Assembly: GCA_013348725.1 (NCBI GenBank)
Contig: CP054689.1
Coordinates: forward strand, 1,290,501-1,354,500
From: Ectothiorhodospiraceae bacterium 2226
GTDB taxonomy: Bacteria > Pseudomonadota > Gammaproteobacteria > GCA-013348725
Length of the DNA: 64,000 nucleotides
Direction: 5' to 3'
Position numbers and translations under genes: made by a program. The notes below the pieces were generated by a model. That model was not told the DNA's origin and did not search any database. It worked only from the letters and a program-made list of their open reading frames with translations. Below are positions 7,707 through 50,771 of this stretch, piece by piece (the stretch's first letter is position 1; each line of letters begins with the position of its first letter).

Positions 7707-8364
7707 CCGGGCCCGTCGGCATGATGTCGGCGAAACTCTCAATGGCGCGGAACTCCGCCACATCGCGCACCGGCCCCCGACTGTCGGGCCGCAGCACCGC
7801 CAACAGGTGGGCGATGCCGTAGGCGCGCGCCGAGCGCAGCACGGGCAGGCTGTCGTCCACCAACAGCGTCTGCTCGGGATCGAAGCGGTGATCCCCGCGC
7901 AGCCCCTGCCAGAAGCGCCGGTCCTCCTTCGGGCGCCCGTAGTGGTGGGCGCTCACGACCACGTCGAAGTGGCCCTCCAGGCGGGTGCGTTCCATCTTCA
8001 GGGCGAGGCTCTTCGGGTGAGCGTTGGTGACCAGCAACACCCGCTTGCCCGCCGCGCGCAGCGCGTCGAGGAAATCCACCGTGTGGGGATGCACGGCGAT
8101 CAGGTGCTCGATCTCCCGCTTCAGCAAGGCGATGTCGAGCTGCAGCTGCTCGCTCCAATAGTCGAGGCAGTACCAGTTCATCGTACCCTCCGCCGCGCGA
8201 AACACCGGGTACAGGTGCGCCTTGGCCTCCTCCACCGACATGCCGTGAAGCTGCGCATAGCGTGCGGGCACGAGCTCCCGCCAGAACTCGTTGTCGAAGT
8301 GCAGATCCAGCAGGGTACCGTCCATGTCGAGCAGGACGTTCTCGATCTCGCTCCAGGCGAGCAT
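7669..8364 (-). CDS. yrfG: HAD-superfamily GMP/IMP nucleotidase-type phosphatase
   Basis: HAD hydrolase of 231 residues resembling E. coli YrfG, a purine mononucleotide phosphatase. The first catalytic motif DMDGT is at residues 13-17, motif II is VTNAH, the Lys is in GRPKEDRRFW, and the last acidic motif is LLVDDSLPVL. The frame is open to 8547, but MLAWSEIENVLLDMDG at 8364 is the family-like start; the extra upstream codons are compositionally junk. It is divergent from nudE, a pairing also seen in E. coli. The C-terminus overlaps the YkgJ-type gene on the other strand. Confidence 0.88.
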   Translation of the reverse strand: MLAWSEIENVLLDMDGTLLDLHFDNEFWRELVPARYAQLHGMSVEEAKAHLYPVFRAAEGTMNWYCLDYWSEQLQLDIALLKREIEHLIAVHPHTVDFLDALRAAGKRVLLVTNAHPKSLALKMERTRLEGHFDVVVSAHHYGRPKEDRRFWQGLRGDHRFDPEQTLLVDDSLPVLRSARAYGIAHLLAVLRPDSRGPVRDVAEFRAIESFADIMPTGPVTGRPGGVDPSA

Positions 8365-8566
8365 GTGACCTCCCAGGGCATGTGGGGCATCAGGCAGCGG
8401 CGCGTCCACCGCTCCTGTCAGTATCTTTGCTCCGGCGTGCACCCCGCAAGCCGAACTTTGAGCCGCAGCGGCGCGACGGTACACTGAGGCGCCGCCGGAG
8501 GCGCGCCTGCTGCCCCGGCCGCAGCGGGCGACATCGCCACCGATCATCTACGCTTAGGGTCGAAAC

Positions 8567-9115
8567 ATGGCCAAGATTCCGGTTATCCGCCGTTCCCGCA
8601 CCGTCGCCCGCTCGCGCCTGTTCCACATCGAGGAACTGGATCTCGAGTTTTCCAACGGCGTGTCGGCCCGTTACGAGCGCCTCGCCGGCTCGGGGCGGGG
8701 GGCGGTGCTCATCGTGCCGATGCTCGATCCCGAGACGGTGCTGCTCATCCGCGAGTACGCCGCGGGGGTGCATCGCTACGAGCTTGCGCTGCCCAAGGGA
8801 CGCGTCGAGCCCGGCGAAGAACTGTTGGCGGCGGCCAACCGCGAGATCATGGAGGAAGTGGGTTACGCGGCGCGGCGCCTGGAGGTGCTGCGCGCGGTGA
8901 CGGCCGCCCCGGGTTATCTGAGCCACACCACGCACATCGTGCTGGCCCAGGAGCTCTACCCGCAGCGCGCGCAAGGCGACGAGCCGGAAGAGATCGAGGT
9001 GGTGCCGTGGCGCCTGTCCGAGCTGTCGGCACTGTTAGAACAAGAGGATTGCACTGAGGCCCGCAGCATCGCGGCCCTCTTTTTAGCCAGGGAGGCAATG
9101 GCGGGTGAACGCTGA
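8567..9115 (+). CDS. nudE: ADP-compounds Nudix hydrolase NudE
   Basis: Nudix hydrolase of 182 residues that in E. coli cleaves ADP-ribose, NADH and Ap3A-type compounds. The complete Nudix box is at residues 78-100 (GRVEPGEE, seven residues, REIMEEVGY), fitting Gx5Ex7REUxEExGU. It overlaps the next gene, cysQ, by 11 nt, implying one transcript. Both act on adenine-nucleotide by-products, which fits a shared clean-up role. Confidence 0.93.
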   Translation: MAKIPVIRRSRTVARSRLFHIEELDLEFSNGVSARYERLAGSGRGAVLIVPMLDPETVLLIREYAAGVHRYELALPKGRVEPGEELLAAANREIMEEVGYAARRLEVLRAVTAAPGYLSHTTHIVLAQELYPQRAQGDEPEEIEVVPWRLSELSALLEQEDCTEARSIAALFLAREAMAGER

Positions 9116-9962
9116 ACAGGGACTGGATTTGAACGGGCTGCTGCCCGAGGTGGTGGCGCTCGCGCGCGAGGCCGGGGAGCGCATCCTCGAGGTCTACGAG
9201 ACCGACTTCGAAGTACAGATCAAGGGCGACGACAGCCCGCTGACCCACGCCGATCTCGCCGCCCACCGCACCATCGTCGGCGGCCTACGAGCCCTGACCC
9301 CCGAGCTGCCGGTGCTGTCCGAGGAGTCGGCCGCCATCCCGTTCGAAGAGCGGGCGCGCTGGCGCCGCTACTGGCTGGTGGACCCGCTGGACGGCACGCG
9401 CGAGTTCGTCAAGCGCAACGGCGAGTTCACGGTGAACATCGCCCTGATCGATAACCACGAGCCCGTGCTCGGCGTGGTCGGCGTACCGGTGAAAAACGTC
9501 GCGTACTACGCCCGTCGCGGCGGCGGCGCCTGGCGCGCCGACAGCGCAGGGGCGACGCAGGCAATTCACGCGCGCCCCCTGCCGGACGGCCCGCCGACGG
9601 TCGCCGGCAGCCGCTCGCACGCCGGCCGTTCGCTCAGCGCCTTCCTGGCCCGCCTCGGCACGCACGAGCTGGTGAGCATGGGCAGCGCGCTCAAGTCCTG
9701 CCTGGTGGCCGAAGGCAAGGCCGACGTCTACCCGCGCCTCGGGCCCACGTCGGAATGGGACACCGCGGCGGCCCAGGCCGTGGTCGAGGAGGCCGGCGGG
9801 CACGTGACCGACACCGCCATGCGCCCGCTGCGCTACAACACCAAGGAAAGCCTGCTGAACCCCCACTTCTTCGCCTACGGCGCGAATCAGGTCGACTGGT
9901 CGAAGTATCTGGAGGCGGAGCCCGCCGGGGCCCGCCCGCGCCCCATCGCGCACGGCTCGTGA
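9105..9962 (+). CDS. cysQ: 3'(2'),5'-bisphosphate nucleotidase CysQ
   Basis: Inositol-monophosphatase-fold enzyme that hydrolyses 3'-phosphoadenosine 5'-phosphate, a by-product of sulfate assimilation, to AMP. Metal-binding motifs are visible: EES (about residue 71), DPLDGTREF (about 92-100) and WDTAAAQAVVEEAGG near 220. Start is GTG at 9105 inside the end of nudE, with GGGAGG upstream. Length 285 is slightly longer than E. coli CysQ (about 246) because of a C-terminal tail. Confidence 0.92.
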   Translation: MNAEQGLDLNGLLPEVVALAREAGERILEVYETDFEVQIKGDDSPLTHADLAAHRTIVGGLRALTPELPVLSEESAAIPFEERARWRRYWLVDPLDGTREFVKRNGEFTVNIALIDNHEPVLGVVGVPVKNVAYYARRGGGAWRADSAGATQAIHARPLPDGPPTVAGSRSHAGRSLSAFLARLGTHELVSMGSALKSCLVAEGKADVYPRLGPTSEWDTAAAQAVVEEAGGHVTDTAMRPLRYNTKESLLNPHFFAYGANQVDWSKYLEAEPAGARPRPIAHGS

Positions 9963-9965
9963 ACG

Positions 9966-9993
9966 CCGTGAGGCGCGCTGGCGCGCCTCACGG
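9966..9993. terminator. Perfect 12-bp hairpin between convergent genes
   Basis: CCGTGAGGCGCG (9966-9977) pairs exactly with 9982-9993 around a CTGG loop. It fills the 32-bp gap between the cysQ stop and the stop of the small minus-strand gene, so it could terminate both transcripts. No T-run on either side. Confidence 0.6.
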
Positions 9994-9994
9994 A

Positions 9995-10219
9995 TCACCC
10001 CGCTGAGCGCGTGTCGTACACCGACATGATGGTCTCGAGCTCGCAGAGTACGCGGAGACGTTCGTCGTCCGTCAGCCCCTCGGTCTGCGGCACCGGCAAG
10101 CCAAGGCGCAGCGCGCCGATGGTGGCGCGCACCGCCTTGCAGCCGTTCTGACACAGGGCTTCCACGCAAGCGTTTACCCGGCGGTCGTTGACCGCCACCG
10201 CAATCGCGACGGCCCCCAT
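9995..10219 (-). CDS. Small conserved-looking protein downstream of minE
   Basis: Seventy-four-residue protein, no recognised domain. Its ATG begins 1 nt after the minE stop, so it is almost certainly translated from the min transcript. The sequence starts MGAVAIAVAVNDRRVNACV, has two cysteines in ALCQNGCKAVRATI, and ends in an acidic helix (LTDDERLRVLCELETIMSVY). The frame is open to 10276, but that would run into minE. No signal peptide or clear membrane segment. Function unknown; a link to division is only by position. Confidence 0.65.
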   Translation of the reverse strand: MGAVAIAVAVNDRRVNACVEALCQNGCKAVRATIGALRLGLPVPQTEGLTDDERLRVLCELETIMSVYDTRSAG

Positions 10220-10220
10220 G

Positions 10221-10490
10221 TCAGCGGGCGGCCACGCGTCCCTTGTCGGGCAGCGTGATGTTGAGCTCCAGTACACCCAGCTCAGCCTCCTGCTCGAGCG
10301 TTACCGACACACTGTCGTTGTCGACATCCACGTACTTGGCAATCACTTCCATCAAGTCCTTCTTGAGCAACGGCAGGTAGTCCGGCGCGTTGCGGTTGGC
10401 ACGTTCGTGCGTGATGACGATCTGCAGGCGTTCCTTGGCGGTCTTGGCTGAACCGTTGCGGCGCCCACGCAGCAAATCGAGAAGACCCAT
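10221..10490 (-). CDS. minE: Cell division topological specificity factor MinE
   Basis: Eighty-nine-residue MinE, which binds membrane-bound MinD, stimulates its ATPase and drives pole-to-pole oscillation so that the Z ring forms at mid-cell. The N-terminal amphipathic/MinD-binding part (LLDLLRGRRNGSAKTAKERLQIVITHERA) and the topological domain (YLPLLKKDLMEVIAKYV) are visible. Start is 3 nt after the minD stop; gene order minC-minD-minE. Confidence 0.96.
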   Translation of the reverse strand: MGLLDLLRGRRNGSAKTAKERLQIVITHERANRNAPDYLPLLKKDLMEVIAKYVDVDNDSVSVTLEQEAELGVLELNITLPDKGRVAAR

Positions 10491-10493
10491 GGC

Positions 10494-11309
10494 TCAGCTC
10501 CCGAACAGGCGCTGGAGGATACCCTTGCGGGCCTCTTCGAGGAAACGCTGCGGGCGCTCCTCGCCCAGGAAGCGGGCCACGATGTCGCTGTAGGCATCGC
10601 CGGCCTCGCTACGTTCCTGCAGCACGATGGGCACGCCGGCGTTCGAGGCCTGCAGCACGTCCTGCGACTCCGGCACCACCCCGAGCAGCGGGATGCCGAG
10701 GATCTCGCACACGTCTTCCACGCTCAACATCTCGCCGCTCGCCACCCGCCGCGGCGAGTAACGCGTAACGATCAGATGCTCGCGCACCGGCTCGCCAGCG
10801 TCCTCCGCACGGCGCGACTTGGCCGCGAGGATGCCGAGAATGCGGTCGGAGTCGCGCACCGAGGAGACCTCGGGATTGACTACCACCAACGCCTCGTCGG
10901 CGTAGTACATGGCCATCATGGCGCCGCCCTCGATGCCGGCGGGTGAGTCGCACACGATGTAGTCGAAACCTTGGTCCTCGGCGAGCGCCTTCAGGACGCG
11001 CCCCACCCCCTCGCGCGAGAGCGCGTCCTTGTCGCGCGTCTGCGAGGCGGGCAGCACGTACAGCTTGTCGCAGCGCTTGTCGCGGATCAGCGCCTGGTGC
11101 AGCGTCGCTTCTTCATTGATGACGTTGACGAAGTCGTACACCACGCGGCGCTCGCAGCCCATCACCAGATCCAGGTTGCGCAAGCCGACGTCGAAATCGA
11201 TAACCGCCGTCTTGTGCCCCTGCAGCGCGAGACCCATGGCGAAGTTGGCGCTGGTGGTCGTCTTGCCCACGCCCCCCTTGCCGGATGTGACTACGATGAT
11301 CTTTGCCAA
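10494..11309 (-). CDS. minD: Septum site-determining ATPase MinD
   Basis: Deviant Walker-A ATPase of 271 residues that recruits MinC to the membrane. KGGVGKTT is at residues 11-18, switch regions DFDVGLRNLDL and DSPAGIEGGA follow, and the C-terminal amphipathic helix EARKGILQRLFGS is the membrane-targeting sequence. The start codon is TTG (complement of CAA at 11307-11309), with GGAGG 7 nt upstream; no in-frame ATG nearby fits. A gap of about 200 bp separates it from minC, so minDE may have an extra promoter. Confidence 0.97.
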   Translation of the reverse strand: MAKIIVVTSGKGGVGKTTTSANFAMGLALQGHKTAVIDFDVGLRNLDLVMGCERRVVYDFVNVINEEATLHQALIRDKRCDKLYVLPASQTRDKDALSREGVGRVLKALAEDQGFDYIVCDSPAGIEGGAMMAMYYADEALVVVNPEVSSVRDSDRILGILAAKSRRAEDAGEPVREHLIVTRYSPRRVASGEMLSVEDVCEILGIPLLGVVPESQDVLQASNAGVPIVLQERSEAGDAYSDIVARFLGEERPQRFLEEARKGILQRLFGS

Positions 11310-11507
11310 GGCAGAACCTCCGGTTGTTCATTATGTGGCGGACCCACGTCCGCCGGACCCGCACGCGCGGGCGCCGCTCCTGCATGACCCTGAGCGATCC
11401 ATCGATGCGCCAGAGTCCGGGGCATGCCGCCCCCTTTCCCTCCAACCGCGGCCTGCGCCACGGCCCCATACCTTGTTACGCGGTCGAGTCTACCCCGCGA
11501 CGGGTCG

Positions 11508-12215
11508 TTACAAGGCCTCAATGACCAGTTGGCCCTGCACCAGGCGCACCTGTACCGACCGCGGCGGGCGTGTGCCCTCTTCGACCACCCGGTAGACCCC
11601 GGCGATTGACACCAACTCGCCCGCGAAATCCTGACAGAAGATGCGCGCGCTTTCATCCCCCTGGACGCCCGCCAACGCACGGCCGCGAAAGGTGCCGTAG
11701 ACGTGGATGCTGCCGTCGGCGAGCAACTCGGCGCCGGTGTTGACCGGCCCGACCACCACCAGGTCGCCGCCGGGCGCATACACCTGCTGGCCCGAGCGCA
11801 CCGGCTGCGTGACCAGTTTGGCCGGCGCATAGGCCGGTGGCGCGGGCGCGGCCTCGCGTGCCGCGCCCGCGCCGACCACGCCCAAGCCGAGCTCGCGCGC
11901 GGCAGCAGCCAGCGGCGCCGGCGCCCCGGCCAGCAGCGCGGCCGGGCGCAAGCCGTGGGTGCGCAGCCCCTGGAGCAGGGCGCGCAGGTTCAGGCGCTCC
12001 GGTGCCTCGACCTCGTTGAGGTCCAGCACCACGGCCGCGTTCTGGAAGAAATCCGCGCCTTTTGCCAGGTGGGTGCGCAAGGCGTCGTTCAGCGCGGTGA
12101 GCTCACTGCTGAAGATGCGCAGTACGCTGAAGGTGAAGCTGCGTCCCGTGAAGGCGAGCGCGGCCGACGTGCGGCGTGCGCCGACGCCCGGCTTGGCGGC
12201 TGAGCGAGTTCCCAA
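11508..12215 (-). CDS. minC: Septum site-determining protein MinC
   Basis: FtsZ-polymerisation inhibitor of 235 residues. The N-terminal FtsZ-interacting domain (FTGRSFTFSVLRI ... VVLDLNEVEAPERLNLRALLQGLRTHGL) is joined by an Ala/Pro linker to the beta-helical MinD-binding domain (VRSGQQVYAPGGDLVVVGPVNTGAELLADGSIHVYGTFRGRALAG). The frame opens at a TTG at 12215; no ATG fits and the Shine-Dalgarno (CGGAACA) is weak, so the exact start is uncertain. Head of the minCDE set. Confidence 0.94.
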   Translation of the reverse strand: MGTRSAAKPGVGARRTSAALAFTGRSFTFSVLRIFSSELTALNDALRTHLAKGADFFQNAAVVLDLNEVEAPERLNLRALLQGLRTHGLRPAALLAGAPAPLAAAARELGLGVVGAGAAREAAPAPPAYAPAKLVTQPVRSGQQVYAPGGDLVVVGPVNTGAELLADGSIHVYGTFRGRALAGVQGDESARIFCQDFAGELVSIAGVYRVVEEGTRPPRSVQVRLVQGQLVIEAL

Positions 12216-12389
12216 TGGTTATTGTTCCGTTGGCAGGATGTGCGCGATTGTCGATTGTTGTGCGGCCGGGGGCCGCGAACGGGTTCCCATTAGACAGTAA
12301 AGGCCCCGGCCTTGCCAAGGCAGTACGCGGCGTGGACGCACGCCCCCCGGTTCCCTTAAAGTGTCGCGTTTTTAACCGGGGCGAGCGTC

Positions 12390-13016
12390 ATGGGTCAGGC
12401 ACAGGATAGACGAAGCGCCGCGCGCGCGCTGACCGAGGCCGGGCGGTTCTTCTTCGCCCGCGGATGGGTCCCCGCGACCAGCGGGAACTTCTCAGCGCGT
12501 CTGTCGGCCGATGAGGCCCTGCTCACCGTCTCGGGCCGCCACAAGGGCCATCTCGACCCGGAGGCGGACTTTCTGCGCGTGGACCTCGACGGTCGTAGCC
12601 TGGATGCGGATCGGCGCCCGTCCGCCGAGACCGAGTTGCACACCACCCTGTACCGGCGCGACGCCGGGATCGGTGCGGTGCTGCACACCCACTCGCCCCA
12701 CGCCACGGTACTGTCCCAACTTACGCGGGGGGGCGACCTGGAACTGGCCGAGTACGAAGTGCTGAAGGCCTTTCCGGGGATCGCGACCCACAGCGCCAGC
12801 GTGCGCGTACCGGTGTTCGACAACGACCAGGACATCACGCGGCTGGCGGCCGCGGTCGCTGCGCGCATGGACGCGGCCGGACTCGGTGTCGGCTACCTGA
12901 TCGCCGGGCATGGCTGCTATACCTGGGGGGAGACCGTGGCCGATGCGGTGCGCCATGTCGAGGCGTTGGAGTTCCTGTTCGAATGCGAGCTGCTGAAGCG
13001 AGGATTGGTGCGATGA
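12390..13016 (+). CDS. mtnB: Methylthioribulose-1-phosphate dehydratase
   Basis: Class II aldolase/adducin-fold zinc enzyme of the methionine salvage pathway; dehydrates 5-methylthioribulose 1-phosphate. The 208 residues show [29 protein letters not shown], a zinc-binding HTHSPHAT and the C-terminal [19 protein letters not shown]. The next gene's ATG overlaps its TGA, so mtnB-mtnD-mtnC form an operon. Promoter sequence was not clear. Confidence 0.95.
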
Positions 13017-13591
13017 GCGAACTGCGTATCTACCGCGAGGCGGGGGCCGACGGCGCGCCGGCGGGCGAGCCGCGCGTGGTGCAGGCGCGCGAGGACATCG
13101 CGCGCGAGCTGGCGGCAATCGGCGTGCTGTTCGAGGCCTGGGAGGCCGAGCGCGTGCTGCCGGACGATGCGACCCAGGACGAGGTGATTGAGGCCTACCG
13201 CGGCCCGATCGAGCGCCTGATGCGCGACAACGGCTTCAAATCCGTCGACGTGGTGAGCATGTATCCCGACCACCCCGACCGGGAGGCGCTGCGCAAGAAG
13301 TTTCTCGACGAGCACACCCACAGCGACTACGAGGTGCGCTTCTTCGTCGACGGCAGCGGCCTGTTCTATCTGCACCCGCAGAACGAGGCCGGGCGCGGCA
13401 AGGTGTACACCGTGCTGTGCGAGCGCGGCGACTTGATCAGCGTGCCGGCCGGCACCCCGCACTGGTTCGACATGGGCGAGCGGCCGTTCTTCAAGGCCAT
13501 CCGGCTGTTCTGCTCGCCCGAGGGCTGGGTGGCCGACTTCACGGGCAGCGACATCGCGCGCCGCTACCCCGCCTACGACGAGCTCGTATGA
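13013..13591 (+). CDS. mtnD: Acireductone dioxygenase
   Basis: Cupin metalloenzyme that oxidises acireductone to the 2-oxo acid precursor of methionine (iron form) or to an off-pathway product (nickel form). Metal ligands are H101, H103 and E107 (HTHSDYE) and H150 (GTPHWFDMG). The start at 13013 uses the ATGA overlap with mtnB; an earlier in-frame ATG at 12983 lies inside mtnB and is not needed. Length 192, typical. The stop overlaps the mtnC start. Confidence 0.95.
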
Positions 13592-30705: not shown

Positions 30706-31242
30706 TTAAAGACCGCCCTCGGTGCCTTCGGGGGAGGTGGTCTCCTCACCCGGCTGCACCTCGACTCCCTCGGGGGCACCCGGGGCGCCGACGTCACCCT
30801 CGACGCCCGGCGCGCCACCTTCCTGCTCCTCCATGAACTGCGCGAACTCCGCCTCGCTGATCACGCCGGTCTGGTCGCGATCGATCTCATCGAAGCGCTC
30901 GGCGAGTTCGGCATCACCCTCGACCTCTTCGCGCGTCAAATAGCCGGTGCCGGCCGTGTCGAGTTGCTCGAAGCGCTCACGGTGCTCGTCGGAGGCCCAG
31001 GTCGCCACCTCGTCTTCGCGCATGCCGTCCGCGCCCGGAGGCGGGGAGGCCCCGGGCGCCTCGGCCGCTTCGTCGGGACCGGTGCCACCCACGGCGCCGT
31101 AGGCGCCATCCTGCTGAGTGATCGGCGAGTCGCCTTCCACGGCGTCGCCCTGCGCGGCACCCGCGCCGGCATCGGTCGCCATCGAGGCGCCGGTGAACAT
31201 CGACAGGGCCAGAACCAAGGCCGCCTTGTCTTTGATCGCCAT
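30706..31242 (-). CDS. Exported EF-hand protein
   Basis: 178-residue protein with a signal peptide (ALVLALSMFTGASMA) and two EF-hand loops: DTAGTGYLTREE and DRDQTGVISEAE, each with Asp at 1, Gly at 6 and Glu at 12, so calcium binding is likely. The flanks are Gly/Pro/Glu-rich and disordered (about 30-75 and 145-178). GGAGG precedes the start at 31242. The gene has its own terminator. Calcium role unknown; the next genes on this strand encode Asp-rich surface proteins. Confidence 0.83.
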   Translation of the reverse strand: MAIKDKAALVLALSMFTGASMATDAGAGAAQGDAVEGDSPITQQDGAYGAVGGTGPDEAAEAPGASPPPGADGMREDEVATWASDEHRERFEQLDTAGTGYLTREEVEGDAELAERFDEIDRDQTGVISEAEFAQFMEEQEGGAPGVEGDVGAPGAPEGVEVQPGEETTSPEGTEGGL

Positions 31243-31493
31243 AGTTGTTTCCTCCATTCGCTGTAGGTTTCCTTACCTGGCGGGCTGTCGCGGCATGGCC
31301 GCACCCGCTGCGCCGATATGGCTGAGCTAAGCGTAGCAAGCGCTGCGCCAAGCTTCAGGAACGGGGCGATTTCAAGGCGATGGAGGGGGGTGGCATCCCC
31401 GGCCGCGCCGCCGGGCGGCCGCGAAGCGTCGCCGCTGTACGACAGTCAAGCCAATTCGCCGGGCCGAGGCCGGCGCACTTGCCCTTGCGGCGG

Positions 31494-31766: not shown

Positions 31767-33578
31767 TCAGCGCTGGCCTTGACGCAGACGCCACCCCAGG
31801 ACGGCCAGCGCGCCCAAGATCATCAGGGGGTGTAGCGGATCGGGCGTCCCCGCCCCGCGCAGTGTGCATCCGCCGCCGCCGGCCAGCCGCTGGGCCTCCC
31901 CGGCCTCCTGCGTCTCTTCGCCGTCGGAGCCACCGTCAGAGGGTTCGCGGGGCGCAGGATCGTCGCGCTGCTCGCTCTGGTCGCCCTGGTCGCTGTCGCC
32001 GCCGCGTTCGTCGCGGTCGTCGTCTTTCTTGTCCTCGTCCTTCCTATCCTCGTCCTTCCTATCGTCGTCCTTCTTGTCGTCGTCCTTCTGATCGTCGTCC
32101 TTGTCGTCGCTCATCTCGGGGACGATCAAATAATGGGCGTTCACCACCGGCGAGTCCTCGAAGTTGCCGCGGTCGCGATAGGCCATCGCGCGCAGCAGCG
32201 CGGACTCTTTTAGCGTGATGCGCTTGCCGCTGTCGATTTTCTTGCCGTTGCGCCGCGTCGGCGTGCTGCCATCGAGGGTGTACATAATCTTGGCGTGACT
32301 CGTGTCGGTCGACAGGCGAACCTTCACCTCGCGCTCGTAGGTCCCGGCGGGCGGATCGAACGTCGGCGGGTCGACTTGGCCAGCACTGAGTTCGTAGTCG
32401 GCGCTGGCGATCAGCGAGTCCGCCAGGCCGTCCTGATAAGCCATCGCGCGGATGCTCGCATCGTCATCGAGGACGATCTCCCCGCTGTCCCCCAGGGCGT
32501 CACCGTGCTCCCGACTGGGGTCGCTGCCATCCAGCGTGTAGCGGATGATGGCGCCCTCGGTCGCCGTGGAGATGCTCACCGATTCTCCCTGCACCAAGGG
32601 GCCGTCCGCTTCGATGCGTGGCTTGGCGGCCTGCTCCAGGGTAAGCGCGCTCAGCGACAAGGTGCACGCCGGCGCGTAGTCGGCATCGCTGGCGCAGGCG
32701 GCGGCGGCAAACTCGCCCGCCTCATGGCCGGCAGCGGCGACCAGCAGCAGGCCCTCCAGGGCGTGCCGCGGTGCCAGCAGCTGGAAGCGTCCGACGGCAT
32801 CGGTAACGGCCTCGATGCGCCGACCGTTCAGGATCAGGCCGGCAAACCGCACCTCAGCCTCGTCCAGTGCCTCGCCCGCCTCGCCGAACACGTGACCCGC
32901 GAAAGGCTGAGCCACCCACAGCTGCGCGGGATTGGAAACGCCCTGCAGGCCATCGGCGCTCACAGCCAGGCGCACGCGCGTGTCGTCGGGCACATCGCGG
33001 GTGGCGAGATCGACCTGCAGTTCGCCGGACGGCGGCACGTGGAGCGGCTCTGGCGGCAAAACCACCGCTTCGGTGGGCAGACCCTCGGCATCGAGGACGT
33101 CGAGATGCAGTGTCGCGCCCGGCACGGCGCCCCGTAGCGTCAACCGGACGTTATCGGCACCCGCGAGGACTTCGTCAGGGCTGAGGGTCGCATCCAGGAG
33201 TACCTCCACCGCCAACTCGACACGCCAGCCGAGCGCGACATCGGTCACGGCGACGCGATGCAGGCCGGCGAAGGCGCCGTCGGTCGGCGCGGTGTAGCGC
33301 CAGCCCCCGTCCCGCAGGCGCTCGAGCGTACCGGCCACACCCGCCGCGTTCGGCTCGACATGGGCAAGGTAGGCACCGCTGCCGCCCACCGCCTGGAAAT
33401 CGAGTTGGGCGCCCGCTTGGAGACTCAACTCACTCGGCAGAGGAACACCTTGGCCTGTTTGCAGATGGAGCGTGTCCGCGAGCGCGGCGGTGGTCCACGC
33501 GCCCCACACCAGCACCAGCATCATCTGCCACGCCCACGCAGGCGCGCACCGCCTTAAGCGGCCTTCCTTGTCGCTCAT
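31767..33578 (-). CDS. Secreted chitobiase-C-domain protein with KDDD linker and CTERM-like tail
   Basis: A 603-residue exported protein. N-terminal signal (MMLVLVWGAWTTAALA), then beta-sandwich domains, a carboxypeptidase-regulatory-like segment (GEAGEALDEAEVRFAG) and two CHB_HEX_C-type repeats (RYTLDGSDPSREHG, MYTLDGSTPTRRNG). A linker of about 60 residues built of K/R-D-D/E repeats follows, then AGGGGCTLRGAG, a hydrophobic span and Arg residues, a tripartite tail like MYXO-/JDVT-type CTERM signals that are cut after export and anchor the protein at the surface. Paralogue of the adjacent upstream gene. No catalytic residues seen; probably structural or adhesive. Confidence 0.75.
   Translation of the reverse strand: MSDKEGRLRRCAPAWAWQMMLVLVWGAWTTAALADTLHLQTGQGVPLPSELSLQAGAQLDFQAVGGSGAYLAHVEPNAAGVAGTLERLRDGGWRYTAPTDGAFAGLHRVAVTDVALGWRVELAVEVLLDATLSPDEVLAGADNVRLTLRGAVPGATLHLDVLDAEGLPTEAVVLPPEPLHVPPSGELQVDLATRDVPDDTRVRLAVSADGLQGVSNPAQLWVAQPFAGHVFGEAGEALDEAEVRFAGLILNGRRIEAVTDAVGRFQLLAPRHALEGLLLVAAAGHEAGEFAAAACASDADYAPACTLSLSALTLEQAAKPRIEADGPLVQGESVSISTATEGAIIRYTLDGSDPSREHGDALGDSGEIVLDDDASIRAMAYQDGLADSLIASADYELSAGQVDPPTFDPPAGTYEREVKVRLSTDTSHAKIMYTLDGSTPTRRNGKKIDSGKRITLKESALLRAMAYRDRGNFEDSPVVNAHYLIVPEMSDDKDDDQKDDDKKDDDRKDEDRKDEDKKDDDRDERGGDSDQGDQSEQRDDPAPREPSDGGSDGEETQEAGEAQRLAGGGGCTLRGAGTPDPLHPLMILGALAVLGWRLRQGQR
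31990..32115. repeat. 15-bp tandem repeat coding for K/R-D-D linker
   Basis: Imperfect 15-bp units (plus strand TCCTTCCTATCGTCG variants) encode KDDDK/RKDED pentads in the shorter surface protein. Confidence 0.7.
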
Positions 33579-33644
33579 GAGTCACCCCTGCGCAGCGTCA
33601 CTGCCGCGCGTCGTCCTTGATGTTATCGGCCACCGGGCCGTCGG

Positions 33645-36029
33645 CTAGCAGCGCACACCACGGCGCAAGCGCCATACCGCCAGCAGCATCAGTAGTGGCA
33701 GCAGCGGATCGGGGCGTCCGTCGCCGGCTCCCAGCGCGCAGCCACCACCGCCGCCGATGCGCGGCCCGTCGGCAGTCGGCTCGCCGTCTTCCGGCGGCGC
33801 CTCGCCGTTGCCGTTCCCATTGTCATCGTCGTCGCCCGGCGGCGGAGTATCGCCCCCGTTGTCGTCGTCATCCCCCGGGAGCGGTGGAGGCGTGCCGCCA
33901 TTGTCGTCGTCATCGTCATCGTCGTCGGGAGGCAACGGAGGCAGTCCGCCGTTACCGTTGCCGTCGTCGTCGTCATCGTCGTCGGGAGGCAACGGAGGCG
34001 TGCCGCCGTTGCCGTCATCGTCGCCGGGGGGCGGAGGAGGCGTGCCGCCGTTGCCGTCATCGTCGCCGGGGGGCGGCGGAGGCGTGCCGCCGTTACCGCC
34101 ATTGCCGTCGTCGTTGCCGTTTTCGTCGTCGTTACCGTTTCCGTCGTCGTTACCGTTTCCGTCGTCGGTGCCGTTTCCGTCGTCGTTGCCGTTGCCGTCG
34201 TCGGTGCCGTTTCCGTCGTCGTTGCCGTTGCCGTCGTCGTTGCCGTTACCGTCGTCGTTGCCGTTGCCGTTGCCGTCATCGTTGCCGGTGCCGTCGTCGT
34301 TGCCGTTACCGTCGTCGTTGCCGTTGCCGTCGTCGTTGCCGTTACCGTCGTCGGTGCCGTTGCCGTCGTCGGTGCCGTTGCCGTTGCTGTCATTGCCGCC
34401 GTTGCCGTCATCGCCACCGTTGCTGTAGTCGCCGCCGTTACCGTCGTCGCCGCCGCTGCCGTCATCGCCGCCGTTGCCGTCGTCACCGTCATCCTCGCCA
34501 GGCGTGATGTGGAAACTCGCGCTGACCTCATCGGACAGCTCGTACTCGTCGTCGTCGGCCGCTGCCGCCAGCAACAGCATTGATTCCTCGGAACTGTGCG
34601 CGCCCCGGAAGGCAATGGCGCGTAATAGCACAAACGACTCCGCGACCTCGCGTAACTCGAAGCTCCCACCATTGCTCACCTGAACGCCGTGCGTCGGTGA
34701 GGGCGGCGAGCCGTCCAAGGTGTACGCGATGGTCGCGTTCTTGGTCGGCGTGCGCAGCGTCACGGTCACCGATCCCGCGAAAAGACCGCCGGGGGGGTCG
34801 ATGCTCGGTGCGTGCATCCGGTCCGTCGTAATGTCGAACTCGGCGCTGGCGACTTCGGAGTCGGCCATGCCGTTCAGGTAGGCGATCGCCTTCAGCGTGA
34901 CGCTGTGCTCCAGCGCCACCTCCCCACCGTTCTCCAACACCTCGCCGTGCTCGCGGCTGGGCGCCGTGCCATCCACGGTGTAGCGAATCAGCGCGCCCGG
35001 CGTGGCGCTGCTGATGCGCACACCGCTTGCGTCGGTGCTGAGCGTGCCGCCGTCGGGGTCGAATCCGGGCGTCCGCACCTGCTCGAGTTCCGGCGGCGAA
35101 AGCGTGAAGGTGCATGCAGACGCGTAGCTTGCGTCGCTCGCACATCCGCCTGCCGCGATAGCCTGCGCGGTATAACCGTCGGCCACCGCGCGCAAGTCGG
35201 CGTCGGCGCGCGGGGCCAGCATGCCAAAACGGCCGGCCTCATCCGTGACGGTCTCATAGCCGCGGCCCGCGACGCTCACGTCCAGCATTTCCACCCGGGC
35301 GCCTTCGAGCGCAGCCCCGCCCGTGCCGTACACGACGCCCGCATACTCCTGCGCCGGCAACACGGCGACGATGGGACTCGTCGCCTCGGCAGAGGTCGCG
35401 CGCACCGCCACCCGCACCCGTTGTGTCTCGGACACGCGCGCAGTGCCGATTTCGACGCGCAGCGGGTTGCCGTCGCTCGGCTCACTCGTGACGGGCGGCA
35501 CCGGAGTCGGCAGCGCGAGCGCTTCGCTCGGCAAACCGCGCTCATCCTGCACCGCGAGACTCAGGCTCTCGCCGGCCTGCGCACCACGCACGGTGAGCTG
35601 CACGCTGTCGGGTCCGCCCAGCGCCTCGCTCGCCGACCAGCTCGCCTGCAAGGGGACGCGCACCGTGAAGTCGAACGCGGTTTCGCCATCGCGCACTTCG
35701 ATGCGGTGGGCCCCCGCGAAGGCGCCCGTAGGGGGTACGGTATAGCGGTAGGTGTCCTCGCCCGTCGCCTGCAGGTCACCGAGGACGCCCGCCTCGTTCG
35801 GGTAAGGGGTGAGCGTGGCGGCACCGCTGGCACCCTGCACGCGCAACTCGAGCGTCTGGCCCGGTGCGAGGGTGTAGGGACTTGCCAGCGGAGCGCCGTC
35901 GGGGCTACTCAGGTGCAACTCGGCGGCCACCGCGCCGGCGCTCAGCACGCAGAGGACCAGACCACAGGCGAGGATGCGTCGGCCGACGCACGCGCGAATG
36001 AATGCGAGTCGTGATACGCTCATGCGCAT
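33645..36029 (-). CDS. Secreted chitobiase-C-domain protein with long NGNDDG repeat linker and CTERM-like tail
   Basis: About 794 residues, a longer paralogue of the next gene. Signal peptide (ILACGLVLCVLSAGAVAA), two beta-sandwich domains, a carboxypeptidase-regulatory-like segment and two CHB_HEX_C-type repeats (RYTVDGTAPSREHG, AYTLDGSPPSPTHG). From about residue 510 to 765 the protein is an acidic low-complexity stretch: many NGNDDG hexads, then PPPPPGDDDGNGGT-type units. It ends GGGGGCALGAGDGRPDP, a hydrophobic span and RLRRG. ATG at 36029 has AGGAGG 4 nt upstream; ATG at 36023 is possible. The repeat tract is likely variable in length between strains. Confidence 0.75.
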   Translation of the reverse strand: MRMSVSRLAFIRACVGRRILACGLVLCVLSAGAVAAELHLSSPDGAPLASPYTLAPGQTLELRVQGASGAATLTPYPNEAGVLGDLQATGEDTYRYTVPPTGAFAGAHRIEVRDGETAFDFTVRVPLQASWSASEALGGPDSVQLTVRGAQAGESLSLAVQDERGLPSEALALPTPVPPVTSEPSDGNPLRVEIGTARVSETQRVRVAVRATSAEATSPIVAVLPAQEYAGVVYGTGGAALEGARVEMLDVSVAGRGYETVTDEAGRFGMLAPRADADLRAVADGYTAQAIAAGGCASDASYASACTFTLSPPELEQVRTPGFDPDGGTLSTDASGVRISSATPGALIRYTVDGTAPSREHGEVLENGGEVALEHSVTLKAIAYLNGMADSEVASAEFDITTDRMHAPSIDPPGGLFAGSVTVTLRTPTKNATIAYTLDGSPPSPTHGVQVSNGGSFELREVAESFVLLRAIAFRGAHSSEESMLLLAAAADDDEYELSDEVSASFHITPGEDDGDDGNGGDDGSGGDDGNGGDYSNGGDDGNGGNDSNGNGTDDGNGTDDGNGNDDGNGNDDGNGNDDGTGNDDGNGNGNDDGNGNDDGNGNDDGNGTDDGNGNDDGNGTDDGNGNDDGNGNDDENGNDDGNGGNGGTPPPPPGDDDGNGGTPPPPPGDDDGNGGTPPLPPDDDDDDDGNGNGGLPPLPPDDDDDDDDNGGTPPPLPGDDDDNGGDTPPPGDDDDNGNGNGEAPPEDGEPTADGPRIGGGGGCALGAGDGRPDPLLPLLMLLAVWRLRRGVRC
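33835..34500. repeat. Minisatellite coding for acidic linker
   Basis: Between about 34090 and 34500 the DNA is a tandem array of imperfect 18-bp units (read on the plus strand, CCGTTGCCGTCGTCGTTG variants), each encoding NGNDDG or NGTDDG. From 33835 to 34090 longer units encode PPPPPGDDDGNGG. Such arrays change length by slippage or recombination. Confidence 0.85.
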
Positions 36030-36217
36030 TCCCCCTCCTTGGGCTGGCTCCTTGGGCTGGTCATACGCCACGGCGCATGCACGGGCAAATCGTCAGCTTT
36101 TCCGCAGCTTGCGGACATCGTTCTCGCGAGGCCGGCGCCCCCCACCGGCTGCTTGAGCTATAGTTGACGCCACTGACGAGTGCAAGGAGGCGGGGCCTCG
36201 CGGCCCTCGCAACAATA

Positions 36218-36877
36218 ATGATGGAACGACCTTACCCAGGGGCTCGTCGTGGCGTGCCGGCGCGCGTCGCGGCGTGGTTGATCGTTAGTGCGCTGTCCCT
36301 CACCCTCTGGCCGGCCACCGCCGCCGCCCAGCAATTGTATTGGGGCTTCGGCATGGGCTTCACCCGGCACGACACCAGCGCCGCCGACTGGGACGACGGT
36401 TCCCTGATCGATGGCGGCGTGAGCCGTAGCGACTTCGGTTTCAAGCTGATCGCGAGCTATGAGATGAACCCACGTCTGGCGTGGGAGGCCGCGTTCGTCA
36501 GTCTGGGCGAACACAGCTTCGAAGGAAGGTCGGACGGCGGGGACTTCTGGCTGAGCGGGGACGTGCGCGGCAAGGCCAGCACCTTGGGTGTCTCCGGCTC
36601 GGGCGTGGTGCGCTGGCCCATTGGCGAGCGCAGCTCGGCCTATGCGCGCGGCGGTCTGTTGTACTGGAATACCGACGTCACCATCGACGACGAGCGCGCG
36701 CGCGAGTCGGGCGGCAAGACCGGCGCCAGCCCCTTGGTGGGCGGCGGGCTCGAGTTCGAGCTCGACCGCGCCATGCGCGTGCGCGTCGAATGGGAGCGCT
36801 ACCTGAACATCGAGAAAGGCGTCTTCGGCAAGTACGACGTGGACATGCTGTCGGCCAGTTTTCTGGTCACCTTCTAG
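36218..36877 (+). CDS. Outer-membrane beta-barrel protein
   Basis: About 219 residues. Signal peptide to about residue 40 (VAAWLIVSALSLTLWPATAAAQ), then alternating strands with Gly/aromatic girdle (LYWGFGMGFTRHD, FGFKLIASYEMNPRLAWEAAFVSLGEHSF, AYARGGLLYWNTDVTID) and C-terminal F (MLSASFLVTF), as in OmpA-like or OmpW-like eight-stranded barrels. The frame opens at TTG 36164; ATG at 36218 or 36221 is more likely, though the nearest AGGAGG (36185-36190) is too far to decide the start. Transcription may come from a TATAGT at about 36159. Confidence 0.75.
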   Translation: MMERPYPGARRGVPARVAAWLIVSALSLTLWPATAAAQQLYWGFGMGFTRHDTSAADWDDGSLIDGGVSRSDFGFKLIASYEMNPRLAWEAAFVSLGEHSFEGRSDGGDFWLSGDVRGKASTLGVSGSGVVRWPIGERSSAYARGGLLYWNTDVTIDDERARESGGKTGASPLVGGGLEFELDRAMRVRVEWERYLNIEKGVFGKYDVDMLSASFLVTF

Positions 36878-50298: not shown

Positions 50299-50771
50299 AC
50301 GCCGGTGGATGACACGCCCGTTTCTGCTCATCGACGCACGCCGTGGACAGGAGCGTGCTGGGGCGCGCCGATGGATGATGCTAAGTCGAGCGAGGCTTGG
50401 CCAGGTCAGCCGCAGCAACATGCGCGCCGACGGCAGAGGGTGACGCGCAGGCAATCCTCGAAGCATTCCCCTCCTCCCCGCCGCGGACCCTCTGTAGGAA
50501 ACGCGCGGCGCTTGACTAGAGCGTTCATGACTAGAGCGTTCATGCGCAAGTTCACCCGTAAGGCGAGGCGCGTACGGCGACGTTGACCGGACACCCACAG
50601 CGCCCGCACCGCGCGCCGCCGCTTCCAGTTCGGCCTCATCCGCCCCTCAGAGCGATATCCCGCCCGGCACCGACCGGAACGCACAACGGTGATCGGGTGG
50701 TGAACGCGAGGGACGCCGGGCAGGTATGATGGGCATCGGCGACCCAAATCAAACTTACACAACGCACAACA
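50299..50771. other. 473-bp intergenic region with a 15-bp tandem duplication
   Basis: GACTAGAGCGTTCAT occurs twice in tandem at 50514-50528 and 50529-50543. No ORF can be supported. The promoter of the transglycosylase gene must lie near 50700-50760. Confidence 0.6.

Follow-up and report, generated by a model that had tools for sequence, protein, structure and literature searches.

Tandem paralogous JDVT-CTERM proteins with two different acidic repeat linkers in Ectothiorhodospiraceae bacterium 2226

Two neighbouring genes in a 64,000-nucleotide stretch of the Ectothiorhodospiraceae bacterium 2226 genome (CP054689.1, positions 1,290,501 to 1,354,500; hereafter the window) encode proteins, P1 and P2, that share a folded part and a C-terminal tail and carry markedly different acidic linkers between them. 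We asked what kind of proteins these are, how the pair arose, and what role the linkers might play.

Layout of the gene pair and its folded domains

P1 and P2 are encoded by two minus-strand ORFs located exactly where the sequence-only reading had placed them, 66 bp apart (Table 1). In both, a putative signal peptide precedes a folded part of ~450-470 residues, which is followed by an acidic linker of low complexity and, at the C-terminus, by a short tripartite segment. By eye, the hydrophobic N-termini of the two proteins look like Sec signal peptides. The start codon of P2 was assigned to the ATG at 36029, which is accompanied by a strong AGGAGG, and a longer product initiated from a GTG at 36071 is possible. 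A perfect 13-bp tandem duplication (CCAGCCCAAGGAG, two copies, 36035-36060) covers the ribosome-binding region just 5' of this start codon. An OmpA-like outer-membrane beta-barrel gene (36197-36877, plus strand) is divergent from P2. Downstream of the pair lies a minus-strand gene (30706-31257) whose acidic product (pI 4.1) is an EF-hand protein that probably carries a signal peptide. A strong terminator-like hairpin (30660-30631) comes after this gene, which could be co-transcribed with the pair.

Table 1. Features of the P1 and P2 genes, in window coordinates.
Feature	Position	Strand	Basis
P2 gene (794-aa JDVT-CTERM surface protein), upstream member of the pair	33645..36029	minus	ORF, strong ribosome-binding site, domain and tag matches
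P2 putative Sec signal peptide, residues 1-36, ...LVLCVLSAGAVAA/E	35922..36029	minus	judged by eye
P2 folded part, ~5 beta-sandwich domains, the last two CHB_HEX_C_1/Fn3_assoc	34503..35921	minus	AlphaFold, mean pLDDT 85.6; Pfam
P2 acidic linker, GNGNDD/GNGTDD array followed by GGTPPPPPGDDDGN-type Pro/Asp units	33759..34502	minus	Tandem Repeats Finder; composition
P2 JDVT-CTERM tag (IGGGGGCALGAGDGRPDPLLPLLMLLAVWRLRRGVRC)	33648..33758	minus	NF033191, 27.9 bits; 33.7 bits in genome search
P1 gene (603-aa JDVT-CTERM surface protein), downstream member of the pair	31767..33578	minus	ORF, domain and tag matches
P1 putative Sec signal peptide, residues 1-35, ...WGAWTTAALA/DT	33474..33578	minus	judged by eye
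P1 folded part, paralogous to that of P2	32115..33473	minus	43% identity in alignment; Pfam; tree
P1 acidic polyampholyte linker, 15-bp KDDDK/KDEDR repeat at 32017-32102, then D/E/G/S-rich	31881..32120	minus	Tandem Repeats Finder; composition
P1 JDVT-CTERM tag (GGGGCTLRGAGTPDPLHPLMILGALAVLGWRLRQGQR)	31770..31880	minus	NF033191, 31.1 bits; 36.8 bits in genome search

The shared N-terminal architecture proposed earlier held for most of its elements. Pfam detected two CHB_HEX_C_1/Fn3_assoc stretches in each protein, with PF13290 scores of 83.7 and 69 bits, far above the gathering cut-off of 22 bits, and the AlphaFold model of the P2 folded part, which was confident, was almost all beta with about five sandwich domains. 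The mutual orientation of these domains is uncertain in this model (pTM 0.55; input of five sequences). The proposed carboxypeptidase-regulatory-like part was less distinct; the CarboxypepD_reg-like match in P2 stayed below the threshold (12.8 bits against a cut-off of 32.2, E = 0.12), Pfam gave no such match in P1, and AlphaFold modelled the region as beta. A fold comparison of the P2 model returned Ig-like matches, including intimin, pilins, FdeC, and other adhesins, that were loose and mostly of high rmsd or restricted to single domains. Such generic matches support a rod-like series of Ig-like domains but point to no function in particular. A sequence-based search for solved homologues yielded nothing useful, and we found no indication of a ligand or an enzyme activity for either protein. 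Judged by their family, the Ig-like domains are more likely to be binding or structural modules than enzymes, and they may bind ligands.

C-terminal tags and the sorting machinery

The CTERM-like tail previously noted in both proteins proved to be a JDVT-CTERM tag, scoring above the curated NF033191 (NCBIfam) cut-off of 27 bits in each case. At the extreme C-terminus, both tags (GGGGCTLRG...LMILGALAVLGWRLRQGQR and GGGGGCALG...LLPLLMLLAVWRLRRGVRC) have the invariant Cys, a hydrophobic helix, and a basic end with the terminal Arg. The genome, a single contig of 2.96 Mb, encodes four tags above the cut-off, those of P1, P2, a subtilase, and a repeat protein at 347 kb, and a fifth below it in a related repeat protein at 1608 kb. 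The only MrtJ above the cut-off in the genome (NF033192, 125.2 bits against a cut-off of 75; C1:2348272-2348556) has a domain that starts 150 bases past the tag of the subtilase. The subtilase gene (C1:2346626-2348128; L027:6127-7629) and the mrtJ gene that follows it (L027:7605-8090) constitute a canonical two-gene sorting pair. The type II secretin GspD is also encoded, again above the cut-off. The same genome contains a family of repetitive, probably beta-propeller proteins (L028:1519-3522, L029:543-2564, and L030:4375-8639), two with JDVT-type tails, one of these below the cut-off, and two tandem members that have no tag and end in a CHB_HEX_C-like domain.

MrtJ has been described with a single adjacent target, and MrtX, a related myxosortase, cleaves MYXO-CTERM proteins, in which a disordered region adjoins the tag and whose surface localisation needs the type II secretion system (PMC11980579). 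From the tags, the MrtJ and GspD genes, and the MrtX precedent, we infer that MrtJ processes both proteins and that they end up exposed on the outer surface. Counting against this reading, the pair is not adjacent to MrtJ but lies ~1 Mb away. All tagged proteins other than the subtilase are far from mrtJ. In our survey of 369 genomes of the class, MrtJ was present in 53, a JDVT tag in 44, and both in 41 (Fisher p 6e-40). At least two tags (two to six) were present in 15 of these 41, indicating that several likely targets per MrtJ are common, in contrast to the published arrangement of one enzyme with one adjacent target.

These features point to a scenario to which we assign a probability of roughly 0.65, namely that the two are membrane-sorted proteins of the cell surface, that their acidic linkers serve as disordered spacers, and that the pair arose by an old duplication, after which two repeat tracts grew separately. 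Both proteins would be exported by Sec, with their five Ig-like beta-sandwich domains folding outside the cytoplasm. The JDVT-CTERM tag would first retain them in the inner membrane, its Cys would probably be lipidated, and MrtJ, encoded elsewhere in the genome, would remove the tag helix, after which the type II secretion system would carry the lipid-anchored proteins to the outer surface. There, the domains would be kept off the membrane by the acidic repeats of the linker, a disordered and self-repelling spacer comparable to the stalk that SD repeats form in staphylococcal Sdr/Clf proteins. After the gene duplication, units would have been duplicated in tandem and in frame within each copy, giving each a repeat tract of its own, and selection would have favoured a linker that is hydrophilic, acidic, and unstructured but no fixed unit or length.

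On their sequence features, P1 and P2 can be classed as JDVT-CTERM proteins, essentially a known kind and an ordinary variation on known designs of bacterial surface proteins, and nothing in the evidence calls for a new mechanism. They resemble MYXO-CTERM/MrtX proteins such as TraA in having a signal peptide, an adhesin-like folded part, a disordered stretch, a Cys-containing tripartite tag, and a presumed type II secretion route, but the MYXO-CTERM tag is specific to Myxococcota and the linkers of P1 and P2 are acidic tandem repeats. Staphylococcal ClfA, Sdr, and Fbl proteins likewise combine Ig-like domains, an acidic low-complexity stretch, and a C-terminal sorting signal, and both Fbl and P2 have 18-bp repeats (encoding SDSDSA and GNGNDD, respectively). 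In ClfA and Fbl, the 18-bp repeat region lies right before the anchor and forms a flexible stalk whose copy number affects binding (PMC6533592). The staphylococcal proteins, however, use LPXTG, sortase, and a thick cell wall, as opposed to JDVT-CTERM and MrtJ in a Gram-negative-type envelope. P1 and P2 contain neither LPXTG, their tail being JDVT-CTERM, nor a Ser-Asp dipeptide repeat, their repeats being KDDD and GNGNDD; the resemblance is one of design, not descent.

Origin of the pair and of its linkers

BLASTP aligned P1 with P2 at 41% identity over 464 residues (E 7e-98), the alignment identity was about 42-43% over ~460 residues, and in a tree the two were sisters with support of 100/99. 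These results bear out the duplication suggested by the sequence-only reading. The duplication is old, judging from the 42% amino acid identity and an NG86 dS of ~1.08, which is near saturation.

The linkers are mutually unrelated in sequence. The contrast drawn earlier between a KDDD-type polyampholyte and an NGNDDG-type polyanion with Pro-rich units is real, and both consist of in-frame tandem repeats. Tandem Repeats Finder identified 5.7 copies of a 15-bp unit in P1, and 20.4 copies of an 18-bp unit and 3.4 copies of a 42-bp unit in P2 (P2 rows at 34105-34484, 34098-34480, 33959-34102, and 33901-34015). The 80-residue P1 linker has 36 acidic and 15 basic residues (net -21), and the P2 linker exceeds 240 residues, a 239-residue stretch of which has 74 acidic residues and one basic residue (net -73). 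An assembly error, named earlier as a possible source of the linkers, is unlikely because the arrays are in frame, contain scattered synonymous differences, and lie on the single contig of a 100% complete genome. We also rejected an import from another gene; neither repeat was found elsewhere in the genome, and the GNGNDD pattern had a single match, in one other genome among 320 of the class.

We then compared the pair with its relatives, using a five-row profile (P1, P2, and three MAG units) against the 369 genomes and in a scan of the single genome contig. The N-terminal unit was present in five other proteins, two in genome G287, two in genome G082, and one in an Ectothiorhodospiraceae MAG, all five of which end in a C-terminal sorting tag. 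The two G287 units paired together in the tree, as did the two G082 units, each within its own genome. The G287 proteins have JDVT-CTERM tags preceded by Ser runs and the G082 proteins have Cys-containing tags preceded by Ser/Gly linkers, these four linkers being short. The MAG protein (JAFIFV010000031.1, L091:2122-7245) contains three copies of the Ig-like/middle/CHB_HEX_C unit with 29-34% identity, but it is larger (1707 residues, the units following a long N-terminal part), its short linker is Gly-rich, and its tail, which is GlyGly-CTERM-like, lacks the Cys, suggesting that sorting tags may have been exchanged between relatives. Every one of these relatives has a short linker, so the extended acidic tracts appear to be derived in this lineage and to have grown separately in each copy. 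We saw no sign of the linker replacement proposed earlier, and the data fit just as well with two repeat units that expanded independently in linkers that were originally short. In G287, two JDVT-CTERM genes lie in tandem (L114:3370-7572 and 7748-13126), encoding a subtilase and a protein with the P1/P2-type N-terminal unit. A search of 143 relatives with the P2 domain part returned mainly CHB_HEX_C matches, with no same-genus or same-family genome among the matches listed.

Possible roles of the linkers

To place the linkers among those of similarly tagged proteins, 60 other JDVT-CTERM proteins from the class were collected and 65 tails were compared in all. The Asp+Glu share was highest in P1 and P2 (0.40 and 0.37; next, 0.32), and P2 had the lowest entropy. 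We rejected acidity as a general property of JDVT-CTERM linkers, as the 60 pre-tag residues showed no higher acidity than the rest of the protein (55 proteins, p 0.65); these residues were less hydrophobic than the rest (p 0.002, 55 proteins). Counting against the main reading, none of the three other likely targets encoded in the genome has a low-complexity linker of similar acidity, so sorting does not depend on a long linker. We also rejected a by-product of a halophilic proteome as the full explanation; other proteins encoded in the window have ordinary pI values, so the nearby proteome is not acidic overall and the acidity of the linkers is not simply halophile composition.

The sequence-only reading had inferred selection on linker charge, and we examined this by comparing every repeat copy with the consensus of its own array. 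The GNGNDD array of P2 contained 16 synonymous and 15 nonsynonymous differences, against an expected synonymous share of 19-26%, and the Pro/Asp array showed a similar pattern, with 19 and 11. The p-values for this synonymous excess (4e-5 to 3e-3 for the GNGNDD array, by transition bias; ~2e-5 to 3e-3 across both arrays, by array and transition bias) are only indicative, and the omega of ~0.2-0.3 for the GNGNDD array is rough, because repeat copies share ancestry (an N-to-T change appears five times). Charge was altered in three of the 15 amino acid changes in the GNGNDD array, compared with about half expected, and in six of the 11 in the Pro/Asp array, all toward more Asp. The P1 array, which is short, gave four synonymous and five nonsynonymous differences, a weak signal. 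Selection on composition is thus supported for the P2 linker by repeat differences that are mostly synonymous, and the earlier claim stands for P2 more than for P1.

These results bear on the possibility that slippage produced the linkers neutrally and that they have no selected role, in which case any soluble pre-tag sequence would serve equally well. The clear tandem-repeat origin, the uniqueness of the repeats in the genome, and the short linkers of other targets in the genome would all fit slippage. We nevertheless consider it unlikely, given that the copies in both P2 arrays show more synonymous differences than expected, that few changes in the main P2 array alter charge, and that P1 and P2 have the most acidic of the 65 tails.

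Calcium binding, surface spacing, and adhesion had been suggested as linker roles. Spacing fits best, by the position of the linkers and by the parallel with SD-repeat stalks, and calcium has no motif in its favour; a pattern scan of both linkers found no full EF-hand, RTX, or TSP3 motif. Thrombospondin-3-like DxDxDG repeats (at least three motifs within 150 residues of the tag) occur just before the tag in 21 of the 60 other JDVT-CTERM proteins (L038, L043, L048, L056, L057, L060, L063, L064, L066, L067, L071, L076-L078, L080, L081, L083, L084, L087, L089, and L090), often joined to it via a conserved TGLxG stretch, indicating that Asp-rich stretches recur beside the JDVT tag. Together with the Asp/Asn/Gly composition of the linkers and the EF-hand gene downstream of the pair, this recurrence could suggest specific binding of Ca2+ by the Asp/Asn-rich tracts, which would make the proteins stiffer or cross-link them, like thrombospondin type 3 or RTX repeats. 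Such a calcium response seems quite improbable, since in addition to the missing motifs the 6-residue period has no hydrophobic residue of the kind that an RTX roll needs, and the Lys/Asp polyampholyte of P1 would be a poor calcium ligand.

Most proteases cleave Asp/Gly/Asn and poly-Pro tracts poorly, and no cleavage motif is evident in the linkers. That they are protease-sensitive release points for shedding the folded part is therefore very improbable, even though the genome encodes a tagged subtilase and partial release by an unknown protease has been described for Myxococcus surface proteins whose tags adjoin a disordered region (PMC11980579).

If the spacer reading is true, the principle of the SD-repeat stalk extends to lipid-anchored surface proteins of Gram-negative-type bacteria. 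JDVT-CTERM substrates have barely been studied, and the pair provides a natural comparison, with one architecture on two differently charged linkers before the same tag. A more far-reaching version, which we regard as speculative and rather doubtful, is that convergent evolution gave MrtJ-sorted proteins of Gram-negative bacteria acidic repeat stalks, the counterpart of staphylococcal SD-repeat stalks, with a charge pattern tuned in each paralogue (polyampholyte versus polyanion) such that their extension would differ with salt or divalent ions. Elsewhere in the window, at 50513-50544, we noted a perfect 15-bp direct repeat (TGACTAGAGCGTTCA, 2.1 copies).
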